This document shows positions 3,037 through 7,052 of a DNA stretch of 33,768 bases, one piece after another. The stretch's first letter is position 1. Each line of letters begins with the position of its first letter. A program made the position numbers and the translations under genes. The stretch spans positions 1-33,768 of the forward strand of contig JAJYSZ010000029.1 in NCBI GenBank assembly GCA_021793315.1, written 5' to 3'. The stretch comes from Bacillota bacterium (GTDB lineage: Bacteria; Bacillota; Sulfobacillia; JAJZYS01; JAJYTV01). Under the pieces are notes generated by a model. It saw only the letters and a list, made by a program, of their open reading frames with translations. It was not told the DNA's origin and ran no database searches.

Positions 3037-3309
3037 ATGGCCGGCGCTGCCGACGAGAAGCACCATGCCCTGAACCTGCGCGACCGCCGTCTGATGGAAC
3101 TGACGGGCGTGACCAAGGTGGAGTCGTTCGACGAGCACGAGATCGCCCTTTCCACGCAGCTCGGAGTACTTTCGGTCAAGGGTGAGAACCTGCACATCAA
3201 GCACCTTGACCTCGAAAACGGCGACCTCCAGCTGGATGGCACCATCCTGACGCTCAGCTACCAGCAGGAGAGCCGGCGCAAGGGGCGTCTGGGCAGGCTG
3301 ATCAGATGA
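3037..3309 (+). CDS. yabP: Sporulation protein YabP
   Basis: The 90-residue product matches YabP in length and motifs: NLRDRRLMELTGVTKVESFDE, then a beta-rich section (LGVLSVKGENLHIKHLDLENGDLQLDG, quoted here only in outline) and a basic tail. YabP is needed for spore cortex or coat formation in Bacillus, where it is transcribed in the mother cell under sigma-E. The track opens the frame at 2911, but the ATG at 3037 gives the normal family length and has GGGGGTGA before it. Its stop overlaps the next start as ATGA, so yabP and yabQ are translationally coupled. I could not define a sigma-E promoter with confidence. Confidence 0.88.
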   Translation: MAGAADEKHHALNLRDRRLMELTGVTKVESFDEHEIALSTQLGVLSVKGENLHIKHLDLENGDLQLDGTILTLSYQQESRRKGRLGRLIR

Positions 3310-3617
3310 TCGATCTGCCGCTGCCGGAGCAGTTTGATCGCCTGCTGTGGGCGGCAGCCGTCGGTCTGTGCCTGGTGCCCCTTTGGTACCTTGTCGCGCG
3401 CACCTGCGGGCGACGAGGCTTCTGGCGCAGCTTTCTGGAATTCTGGCTGCTCGGCCTCCTGGGCGTCGGCGCTGCCGCGGCCCTCTTCGTCGGCACCCTG
3501 GGTGACCTTAGGGCCTACGTGCCGGTGGGATTTGCCGGCGGCGGCGCTCTCGCGGCAGGACTTCTGCACATTCTCCGGGCTCCCTGGCAGGAGACGAGGC
3601 ACAGGCACAGAATCTAA
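3306..3617 (+). CDS. yabQ: Spore cortex biosynthesis protein YabQ
   Basis: The 103-residue protein has about three membrane segments (LLWAAAVGLCLVPLWYLVA, FWLLGLLGVGAAAALFVG, a third glycine/alanine-rich one). It follows yabP with a 4-nt ATGA overlap, exactly the Bacillus arrangement. YabQ localises to the forespore outer membrane in B. subtilis and is required for cortex synthesis. Sequence conservation in this family is low, so the assignment rests on size, topology and position between yabP and divIC. A basic, His/Arg-rich tail ends the protein. Confidence 0.8.
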   Translation: MIDLPLPEQFDRLLWAAAVGLCLVPLWYLVARTCGRRGFWRSFLEFWLLGLLGVGAAAALFVGTLGDLRAYVPVGFAGGGALAAGLLHILRAPWQETRHRHRI

Positions 3618-3626
3618 TCCGACATT

Positions 3627-3658
3627 CTATCCACAAAGTGTGGACAAAATGTGGACAA
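3627..3658. promoter_or_regulatory. Cluster of three DnaA-box-like 9-mers
   Basis: CTATCCACA (3627-3635, plus strand) is followed by two copies of TGTGGACAA (3639-3647 and 3650-3658), whose complement is TTGTCCACA. Each differs at one position from the DnaA box TTATCCACA, and TTGTCCACA is a common box form in high-GC bacteria. The two minus-strand copies start 11 bp apart, one helical turn. The cluster lies between yabQ and the HTH gene, upstream of divIC. It may bind DnaA as a regulatory or titration site; no dnaA, dnaN or AT-rich unwinding region is visible, so an origin is not claimed. Confidence 0.5.
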
Positions 3659-3677
3659 GCAAGGAGGCGAGGCGCAA

Positions 3678-3926
3678 GTGCACCTGGAAATCAGGGGGGC
3701 AGAGCGCCTCAGCTTTCGGGAGCGGCAGGTGGTTACCCTGAAGGAGACAGGGGTACGCCAGGACGCCATCGCGCGTCAGCTCTCGTTGAGCGAGTCCAGT
3801 GTCGCCACCCTGCTCCATCGCGCCAAGACAAAGGGCTATCAGGTCGTCATCGTCATCGATGGTGACCCTCTGGCCTTGAACGACGACAGCTTGGAGGAGG
3901 AAGAGGAGATTGGCGAAGGCAGCTGA
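3678..3926 (+). CDS. Small sigma-70-region-4-like helix-turn-helix protein
   Basis: The 82-residue protein carries one helix-turn-helix of the sigma region 4/LuxR type: LSFRERQVVTLKETG, then DAIARQLSLSESSVATLLHRAK. The rest is a short beta-like strand (YQVVIVIDG) and a very acidic tail (SLEEEEEIGEGS). It has no core-binding region 2, so it is a DNA-binding regulator rather than a full sigma factor. The track starts at 3651, but AAGGAGG at 3661-3667 points to the GTG at 3678. It overlaps the divIC start by 17 nt, which suggests coupling with cell-division gene expression. Its upstream region holds the DnaA-like boxes. Confidence 0.65.
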   Translation: MHLEIRGAERLSFRERQVVTLKETGVRQDAIARQLSLSESSVATLLHRAKTKGYQVVIVIDGDPLALNDDSLEEEEEIGEGS

Positions 3927-4299
3927 CGCGATCGGCCTCGCAGTCCTCCGTGCACCGGCTCCTGCGCGCAAGGCGCCGGCGGAGAAGGAGGAACGGCAGA
4001 GCCAGCCCCGTCGCAAGGCGCGGCGCCGGGTGCGCCTGCGCTTCGGCCGCCTGATGTTCGCCGCGGCGATCGCCTACCTTGTGGGCGCAGGGGCGATCGG
4101 TGAGCTTCAGCTGCTGCACGTGCAGGCGCAGGAGAGCCAAGTACTCCAGAAGCTTCACGTGGTCAAGGGACATGCCGCACAGATGAAGACCGAGTTGCGC
4201 CAGCTGAGGACGCAGACGGGCGAGGCCGAGGCGGTGCGGCAGGTCTTGCACTACGCGCCCAAGAGTGGCGCACCCGTGGTGATCACGGTACAGCACTGA
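3910..4299 (+). CDS. divIC: Septum formation initiator (DivIC/FtsB family)
   Basis: The 129-residue bitopic protein has a basic cytoplasmic N-terminus (RRKARRRVRLRFGR), one membrane helix (LMFAAAIAYLVGAGAIG, about residues 48-64), and an extracytoplasmic coiled coil (ESQVLQKLHVVKGHAAQMKTE). A short C-terminal segment reading RQVLHYAPKSG replaces the usual ARexlgyvkpGE signature. This is the DivIC/FtsB plan; in Bacillus, DivIC works with FtsL and DivIB in the division septum. The start is TTG behind GGAGGAGG at good spacing, and it overlaps the HTH gene. Position after yabP-yabQ supports divIC. Confidence 0.8.
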   Translation: MAKAADAIGLAVLRAPAPARKAPAEKEERQSQPRRKARRRVRLRFGRLMFAAAIAYLVGAGAIGELQLLHVQAQESQVLQKLHVVKGHAAQMKTELRQLRTQTGEAEAVRQVLHYAPKSGAPVVITVQH

Positions 4300-4418
4300 A
4301 GTGTGGCGTTCGGCGGTAGCCGGGCGAACAAAAGGGAAGGCTCCCGTTCGGGACCGTAGGGGAGATGCCGCCCATACGGGGAAGAGCGATGTCGCATGCC
4401 ATACGAGGAGGATGTCCG
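4300..4418. other. Intergenic region between divIC and the DsrE-like gene
   Basis: No gene is supported here. The stretch contains several short GC-rich self-complementary pieces (for example CCCGTTCGGG) but no T-run and no riboswitch class I recognise. It may simply be a leader for the following gene. Confidence 0.3.
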
Positions 4419-4754
4419 GTGGGCAAGATTCTTGTGCTGCTGAACGCCGGTAAGGAGGATCCGACGCGCGTGCGCTCCGGACTTGGCTTCGCAGGCGTGG
4501 CGAGCCAACGCCCGGACGTGGACAAGGTCGCCCTCATCTTCTTCGGCAATGCGGTAGAATTGTTGACCGATCCCGAGTATGTCGGCACAGCGGAGAAGTT
4601 TATCGAGCGTGGCGTCCTGACGCTGGCCTGCCAGGCGCATGCAGAGCAGAAGCAGATCAAGGACCAACTGAGCCAGGGTCCCGTCACGCTGAAGTACGTC
4701 GGCGAGGACATCGTGCGGCTGATCAACGAAGGATACCAGGTCGTCAGCTTCTGA
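4419..4754 (+). CDS. DsrE-family protein
   Basis: The 111-residue protein starts VGKILVLLNAGKEDPTRVRSG and shows the DsrE-like alternation of strands and helices, with VALIFFGNAVELL in the second strand and a closing YLV-type end (GYQVVSF). DsrE/DsrF-like proteins are small cytosolic proteins of sulfur relay or of unknown role. One Cys is visible (LTLACQAHAEQ, about residue 71), at a position often used in the family. The GTG at 4419 has GAGGAGGA at ideal spacing and is preferred to the upstream ATG at 4365. It is inserted between divIC and the S1 gene, unlike Bacillus. Confidence 0.75.
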   Translation: MGKILVLLNAGKEDPTRVRSGLGFAGVASQRPDVDKVALIFFGNAVELLTDPEYVGTAEKFIERGVLTLACQAHAEQKQIKDQLSQGPVTLKYVGEDIVRLINEGYQVVSF

Positions 4755-4907: not shown

Positions 4908-4957
4908 TCGTATCAGAGGTATTGGGCGAATCAGCCCAGTTGGAAAGCGGGGAGACT

Positions 4958-5410
4958 TTGGCGGAGGAAGAGATCGTCGTTGGGTCCGTGGTCGAGGGCG
5001 TGGTGACCGGCATCACGCGCTTCGGCGCATTCGTGTTGCTCCCGGGCGGCAAGACAGGACTTGTCCACATCTCCGAAGTGGCGGATTCCTATGTCAACGA
5101 CATCAAGGAGTTCGTCAAGGAGCAGGACCAAGTCAAGGTCAAGGTTCTGTCGTACGACGGCAACCAGAAGATCGCTCTCTCCATCCGTCAGGCCAAGCCA
5201 GGCGCATCGGCCGTCCGTCCGCGCAGTGGAGGATTCAGCGGCGGCGGCGGCGGCGGCGGCGGTCATGGACGTGGACCCGCACGTCCGCAGAACTTCGAGG
5301 ACCGTCTGGCCCGGTTCATGAAGGAGAGCGAGGATAAGCAGGCGGACTTGCGCCGCCATCACGACTCGCGCCGGGGAGGTCACCACGGCCGCGGCGAAGG
5401 CTCGCTCTGA
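4958..5410 (+). CDS. yabR: S1 RNA-binding domain protein (YabR-like)
   Basis: About residues 5-75 form one S1 domain: IVVGSVVEGVVTGITRFGAF, KTGLVHISEVADSYV and KVKVLSYDGNQKIALSI match the general-stress-protein-13/YabR group. A glycine run (eight Gly), a positively charged linker and an RRHHDSRRGGHHGRG tail follow; they look disordered and RNA-binding. YabR-like proteins bind RNA or ribosomes and sit downstream of divIC in Bacillus, as here. The start is uncertain: TTG at 4958 gives a normal N-terminus with GGGGAG close upstream; TTG at 4922 or 4940 would add 12 or 6 residues. A clear terminator follows. Confidence 0.85.
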   Translation: MAEEEIVVGSVVEGVVTGITRFGAFVLLPGGKTGLVHISEVADSYVNDIKEFVKEQDQVKVKVLSYDGNQKIALSIRQAKPGASAVRPRSGGFSGGGGGGGGHGRGPARPQNFEDRLARFMKESEDKQADLRRHHDSRRGGHHGRGEGSL

Positions 5411-5887: not shown

Positions 5888-5935
5888 TTGCACGAGCGGC
5901 CGCCTTCTGGTACCATGTGCACAGATTTGTGCACA
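5888..5935 (+). promoter_or_regulatory. Promoter with twin TGTGCACA operator-like palindromes
   Basis: TTGCAC (5888-5893), 17 bp, then an extended -10 TGGTACCAT (TACCAT at 5911-5916). Two 8-bp palindromes, TGTGCACA at 5916-5923 and 5928-5935, start 12 bp apart and cover the expected transcription start. This is the geometry of a repressor site; the repressor is unknown. Only a 20-nt leader separates it from the TTG start. Confidence 0.6.
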
Positions 5936-5954: not shown

Positions 5955-7052
5955 TTGGAGCGCTTCGCTTTTATCCTCCATCCCCTGCGCTTCGTCGACT
6001 TCACCCGCAAGTACCCCGCGCTACGCCTGCTGTCCGAATCTTTCGTCGAGAAGGGTTTCAGCCATCTTCCGCCGTACAAGGCCTCCCACATCACGGGACT
6101 TCGCTCACCCACCGGCGTGGAGGCAGAGGGCTGGTTCATCGTCGTGCCCGTCTCCGCCAATCTCATGGTGAAGATGCCATTCCGCGAGGAGATCCTGCCG
6201 CGGCTCGTGCGCGCGGGCAGGGTAGCCGAGGATCTCGGCGCCCGCATCGTCGGACTCGGTGCGTTCACCAAGGTGGTGGGAGACAGGGGCGTCTCGGTGG
6301 CCAAGGCCCTGTCTGTCCCCGTCACGACCGGAAACTCCTATACGGCCGCGTCTGCCGTGGACGGAGCGCTGCTTGCGGCGGAGCGCATGGGCATCCCCGC
6401 ACAGGAGGCCGAGGCGTGCGTCGTGGGAGCCACCGGTGCGATCGGCCGCGCGGTTGCCGCGGCCTTGGCGGGTTCGGTGCGGCGGCTCAGCCTGATCGGT
6501 CGGCGCGTCGACAAGCTGCAGGCCATCAAGCGCAGCATCGACGATCTCGGCACCTACACGGACGTCACGATCGGCACCGACGCGCGGGTCGCGGCCAAGA
6601 CGGCCGACGTCGTCCTGACGGTCTCGTCGGCCACGGGCGTGCTGCTTGAGCCGGAGGACCTGAGGCCGGGGTCGGTGGTCTGTGACGTGGCACGGCCGCG
6701 CAACGTGTCGGAGAAGGTGTACGAGCGGCGCCGCGACGTCCTCGTGATCGACGGCGGCGTCATCGCGGTGCCGGGCAAGGTGGACTTCCACTTCGACTTC
6801 GGCTTCCCGCCCGGCTACGCCGAGGCATGCATCGCGGAGACGATGATCCTGACGCTCGAAAAGCGCTACGAGCCGTACACGCTCGGCCTCGACATCAGGC
6901 CGGAGCGGGTGCGGGAGATTCGTGAGCTCGCCCGCCGCAACGGCTTCTCGGTCGCGGGGTTCCGCCGCTTCGAGCGTGCGATCCCCGAGGCGGAGATCGA
7001 CGCGATCCGCGAGGAGGCGGAGCGCAGCCTGCGCCGCTCGACCAGCGCCTGA
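5955..7052 (+). CDS. Acyl-ACP-reductase/shikimate-dehydrogenase-like NAD(P) oxidoreductase
   Basis: The 365-residue protein has an N-terminal region containing IVGLGAFTKVVGD and TTGNSYTAA, then a Rossmann fold with VVGATGAIGRAVAAAL (dinucleotide binding, about residue 156), ADVVLTVSSATG, and a C-terminal CIAETMILTLEKRYEPYTLG. The order and wording of these motifs resemble cyanobacterial long-chain acyl-ACP reductase, which makes fatty aldehydes; automated annotation often calls Firmicutes relatives shikimate dehydrogenase. The conserved Cys of the reductase is not obvious at its usual place, so the substrate is open. The TTG start has GGAGAGGT at 7 nt. It has its own promoter and a shared convergent terminator. 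Confidence 0.65.
   Translation: MERFAFILHPLRFVDFTRKYPALRLLSESFVEKGFSHLPPYKASHITGLRSPTGVEAEGWFIVVPVSANLMVKMPFREEILPRLVRAGRVAEDLGARIVGLGAFTKVVGDRGVSVAKALSVPVTTGNSYTAASAVDGALLAAERMGIPAQEAEACVVGATGAIGRAVAAALAGSVRRLSLIGRRVDKLQAIKRSIDDLGTYTDVTIGTDARVAAKTADVVLTVSSATGVLLEPEDLRPGSVVCDVARPRNVSEKVYERRRDVLVIDGGVIAVPGKVDFHFDFGFPPGYAEACIAETMILTLEKRYEPYTLGLDIRPERVREIRELARRNGFSVAGFRRFERAIPEAEIDAIREEAERSLRRSTSA

Follow-up and report, generated by a model that had tools for sequence, protein, structure and literature searches.

The window, i.e., the whole stretch of 33,768 nucleotides that was analysed, carries a locus with the gene order yabP, yabQ (weak match), a helix-turn-helix (HTH) gene, a divIC-like gene, a DsrE-like gene and an S1-domain gene. 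The features of this locus are as follows:

3037–3309, plus strand: yabP, sporulation protein (TIGR02892, E = 6.8e-25, above the cut-off); start ATG at 3037 by inspection
3306–3617, plus strand: yabQ, spore cortex protein, weak match (TIGR02893, E = 6.1e-5, below the curated cut-off)
3589–3613, plus strand: sigma-H-type promoter, AGGA (3589–3592), 17 bp, GAAT (3610–3613), overlapping the end of yabQ
3627–3635, plus strand: array unit 1, DnaA box CTATCCACA, with TAT at phase position 3628
3639–3647, minus strand: array unit 2, DnaA box TTGTCCACA
3650–3658, minus strand: array unit 3, DnaA box TTGTCCACA, 11 bp from unit 2
3661–3667, plus strand: Shine-Dalgarno sequence AAGGAGG of the HTH gene, read from the sequence
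3678–3926, plus strand: 82-aa HTH protein, GTG start at 3678 (Pfam Sigma70_r4_2, E = 2.7e-8)
3910–4299, plus strand: divIC-like division gene, assigned by position and size
4365–4754, plus strand: DsrE-like gene (PF02635, E = 2.4e-5), between divIC and the S1-domain gene
4922–5410, plus strand: S1-domain RNA-binding protein, yabR-like (PF00575, E = 3.9e-16)

An iterated profile detected yabQ at the equivalent position in relatives. The divIC-like gene had no Pfam or NCBIfam match at 1e-3; with a profile iterated from the window gene, it was found directly 3′ of the HTH gene in nearly all relatives. The S1-domain protein also matches NF004473 (E = 1.5e-41, below the cut-off). The gap from divIC to the S1-domain gene, which holds the DsrE-like gene in the window, is shorter in most relatives. 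Farther downstream, a TGTGCACAGATTTGTGCACA repeat pair (5916–5935) lies in the gap ahead of an acyl reductase-like gene at 5955.

The profile matches of the 82-aa HTH protein are sigma-70 region 4 and LuxR/GerE. AlphaFold2 gave a confident three-helix HTH flanked by two beta strands, with a mean pLDDT above 90 in every block of the first 60 residues. The nearest folds to this prediction are those of GerE, NarL and sigma region 4, none of them a strong match. The family is present in 87 of the 101 relatives and also in 379 stretches of GTDB genomes, its hosts including Sulfobacillus, Thermaerobacter, Desulforamulus, Pelotomaculum and Fermentithermobacillaceae. In one relative (L213, G035), the HTH gene is spread over two frames owing to a frameshift or sequencing error, and the TTRTNCACA box is absent nearby.

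The original prediction described three one-mismatch DnaA boxes within 32 bp, two of them 11 bp apart on one strand, and placed the cluster between yabQ and the HTH-divIC genes. The window sequence bears out this description in full: each site differs from TTATCCACA at one position, the 11-bp pair consists of minus-strand copies of TTGTCCACA (3639–3647 and 3650–3658), and yabQ stops at 3617. The three boxes occupy the gap between the end of yabQ and the ribosome-binding site of the HTH gene, and the array is better described as the 11-bp-phased units TATCCACAAAG, TGTGGACAAAA and TGTGGACAAG. A first pattern for palindromic boxes gave no match. Shuffles predict 1.57 one-mismatch boxes by chance over the whole 33.8-kb window; three in 32 bp would arise at about 2e-6 per window and 2e-4 per 3.5-Mb genome (arithmetic from the shuffle rate). 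Exact TTRTCCACA occurs 15 times in the whole 3.5-Mb genome, and pairs of it no more than 15 bp apart are found at only two sites, namely the window cluster and the region upstream of dnaA. The cluster is kept at the same location in relatives.

The conservation of the boxes upstream of HTH-divIC, proposed earlier as a check, was confirmed in 80 named or MAG loci, where the 120 bp ahead of each HTH gene (9.6 kb in all) hold 166 copies of TTRTNCACA vs 35 across the other 447 kb and are thus 220-fold enriched in the box. Phasing was counted in 98 non-redundant regions upstream of the HTH gene: TGT pairs at distances of 11, 22, 33, 44 and 55 bp number 258, 184, 110, 53 and 19, respectively, with about one expected each. 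A typical array consists of TTGTANTAA, then TTGT(A/C)CACA, then TTGTGGATAA, this final unit being a reversed perfect DnaA box. Counted from the gene, the units are TGTGGATAA, then TGTACACA or TGTGCATAA, TGT(C/A)CACA and TGTA(C/A)TAA. The last unit is the exact complement of TTATCCACA in 42 of 96 cases and of TTGTCCACA in 13 more; within it, constraint follows the DnaA consensus, box position 5 being among the least constrained. A blind scan with a three-unit pattern found 27 of 300 phylum genomes, with one match each, and all 27 matches adjoin an HTH gene on its upstream side (L190 was checked individually). In the family of the window, the pattern is found on the other strand, so the array is inverted with respect to the usual orientation. 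The array in the window is a local version of one conserved across much of Bacillota.

The array follows a sigma-H-type promoter. AGGA-N17-GAA occurs in 57 of the 98 upstream regions, including that of the window, with 0.016 expected per sequence. Spacers other than N17 were almost never found in these regions, except for N18 in seven; TATAAT-like sequences are present in another 26. The separation of AGGA and GAAT by 17–18 bp is that of the SigH motif derived from mapped transcript ends in Sporomusa, AGGA-17/18-GAAT (PMC12456013). The arrays start 3–34 bp downstream of the GAA element and therefore span the expected transcription start and the early transcribed region, where, judging from the sequence, a repressor would be expected to act.

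The array is tied to the HTH gene and not to yabQ or divIC. The genome of L129 has just one close HTH copy, which lies between tRNA genes, away from yabQ and divIC, and retains a five-unit array. In L255, the HTH gene follows an nth-like gene, and the array is again present. No array was found at the 11 yabP loci examined in genomes lacking the HTH gene, where the only box is a lone TTGTGCACA towards the end of L216. At three of these loci, the fetched stretch contains both yabQ and divIC without an intervening HTH gene; at the other eight, divIC is absent from the fetched stretch, which makes the lack of an array weaker evidence there. Since the array follows the moved gene and was not seen at the loci lacking it, it is a putative operator of the HTH(-divIC) gene, and the view of it as a general yabQ, divIC or yab feature was rejected. 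The same properties, a site directly before a regulator gene that moves with it and is missing where the gene is missing, are those of an autoregulatory operator.

A class-wide pattern scan matched HTH upstream regions, the dnaA-dnaN region of L193, sequence ahead of a thiolase-like gene in two relatives (L208, L209), and simple repeats; array sites elsewhere were rejected as an HTH regulon. The L193 match (about 1501–1541, relative G068) is an 11-bp-phased four-unit array in the dnaA-dnaN interval; no other origin region fitted the pattern. L208 and L209 (G075, G054) carry orthologous four-unit TGT arrays upstream of the thiolase-like gene.

The region upstream of dnaA in this genome holds TTATCCACA, TTGTCCACA and TTATCAACA, i.e., the same consensus in the same +,−,− order, as a comparison suggested with the original prediction revealed. 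The window boxes are clustered near a promoter above chance and agree with those upstream of the genome's own dnaA, as would be expected of a DnaA-regulated promoter; because of this match, DnaA is a likely ligand. Their spacing and box variants are unlike those at dnaA/oriC of relatives. On the gene strand, box position 3 is G in 119 of 133 forward boxes (G:A 119:14) and A in 79 of 117 reverse boxes (79:38). This forward-TTGT/reverse-TTAT bias (odds ratio 17.7, p = 1e-21, with related genomes treated as independent in p-values and box counts) is absent at dnaA loci, and a requirement for TGT in phase would explain it. Same-strand boxes in arrays are spaced by 11 bp in 46 cases vs 12 bp in 10, whereas at dnaA loci the spacing is 12 bp in 23 and 11 bp in 4. 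TTGTACACA was counted 52 times in arrays vs 5 at dnaA loci and TTATC[AG]ACA 2 vs 24 times. Units of the TTGTANTAA type, three mismatches from a box, are common in arrays and rare at dnaA loci, and 11 of the 98 arrays, e.g., in Pelotomaculum, have no TTRTNCACA at all. The strand bias, the phasing unlike that at dnaA loci and the box-free arrays argue for a second reader that is sensitive to orientation; the HTH protein is the likeliest one.

The original prediction held that DnaA may link replication to division and sporulation genes at this site. The conserved boxes and the consensus shared with dnaA speak for it, while the array proved to belong to the HTH gene. As for a DnaA-only reading of the boxes, the oriented 11-bp TGT phase, the non-box units and the box-free arrays imply another reader. 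In the same genome, two further DnaA boxes (CTATCCACA and TTGTCCACA) lie 12 bp apart at G000:C115:10110-10129 (L243 1511–1530), upstream of an hpf-like (ribosome hibernation factor) gene preceding secA, and may be a second DnaA target.

The best explanation, given about an even chance, is an operator that serves the HTH(-divIC) transcription unit specifically and is read by both DnaA and the HTH protein behind a sigma-H-type promoter. The promoter is followed by 11-bp-phased sites around and just downstream of the expected start, ending shortly before the ribosome-binding site. Two overlapping codes appear to fit such sites best, with the HTH protein as the natural second reader. In the first code, several units qualify as good DnaA boxes, as a rule a strong reversed one accompanied by weaker forward ones; DnaA, probably as cooperative DnaA-ATP, would be expected to bind the array and to repress initiation or early elongation. 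In the second code, TGT recurs in nearly every unit on the same side of the helix and with the same orientation, which calls for another reader; the HTH protein, acting as repressor of its own gene, is the likeliest. Both proteins would bind the one array or compete for it, and transcription of HTH and divIC would respond to the replication state during the sigma-H phase. On the other hand, the strong DnaA-box match could mean that DnaA is the sole ligand, the weak units being graded for cooperative loading, and the differences from oriC could mean that DnaA does not bind in vivo. The extension of this operator to a phylum-wide node, in which one array is read both by DnaA and by the HTH protein, its partner or competitor, and the sigma-H-driven synthesis of the regulator and DivIC is gated by replication state, is a more tentative proposal.

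It is unlikely that DnaA acts alone, the strong reversed box nucleating a DnaA-ATP oligomer that spreads over weaker, 2-bp-spaced units toward the sigma-H promoter and represses HTH-divIC. The last units complementary to TTATCCACA or TTGTCCACA and the box order shared with the dnaA of this genome agree with such an oligomer, as do the weak sites 2 bp apart beside strong boxes in Escherichia coli oriC (PMC6727663), but the strand bias at position 3 and the same-strand spacing differ from the dnaA loci, and neither the TTGTANTAA units nor the box-free arrays conform to it. A purely autoregulatory HTH operator, in which TTGTnnACAA-like units just happen to look like DnaA boxes, is somewhat less probable again. 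In its favour, the array accompanies the HTH gene on relocation and is found almost nowhere else, box-free arrays still in phase exist, and the protein has a helix-turn-helix fold; however, an unrelated operator would seldom coincide with the exact TTATCCACA, the commonest last unit, and the conservation pattern is box-like. An RNA element, with TTGTCCACA and TGTGGATAA pairing as a hairpin ahead of the ribosome-binding site, is very improbable. In many species, unit −3 is complementary to unit −1, but the array is inverted in the family of the window and its spacing is explained by the DNA helical period; the hairpin was rejected since the central pair is broken by A opposite G in 18 of 60 arrays with no compensation and an Rfam search gave no match. 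A functionless chance cluster, suggested by single boxes elsewhere in the genome, is the least credible, being already refuted by the phylum-wide conservation and phasing.

The coordination of replication and division is poorly understood. The array, which many spore formers keep behind a sigma-H-type promoter and ahead of divIC and an uncharacterised regulator gene, is a specific candidate open to experiment, and it gives an HTH family as yet without a name a likely target. It looks like a hitherto unstudied switch through which replication could be coupled to division and sporulation. The literature search found no paper joining DnaA boxes and divIC.

FtsL is the partner of DivIC. In Bacillus subtilis, DnaA binds the region upstream of sda, and the ftsL promoter is bound by DnaA in vivo (PMC8203912). 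The array resembles the sda, ftsL and dnaA promoters of B. subtilis in having clustered DnaA boxes at a sporulation or division gene promoter. It differs in being linked to an HTH-divIC gene and a sigma-H-type promoter and in its strict 11-bp phase with one orientation. E. coli oriC has strong boxes beside runs of weak sites with 2-bp gaps, i.e., an 11-bp period (PMC6727663), whereas the array described here lies in a gene leader and not an origin, and its units, TTGTANTAA among them, share a phased TGT. Small HTH regulators that control their own genes (LuxR/GerE, sigma region 4-like) likewise have an operator directly before the gene of a small DNA-binding protein, and the modelled fold of the HTH protein resembles that group. 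Unlike those regulators, it is a stand-alone 82-aa protein with flanking beta strands, without receiver or core sigma domains.
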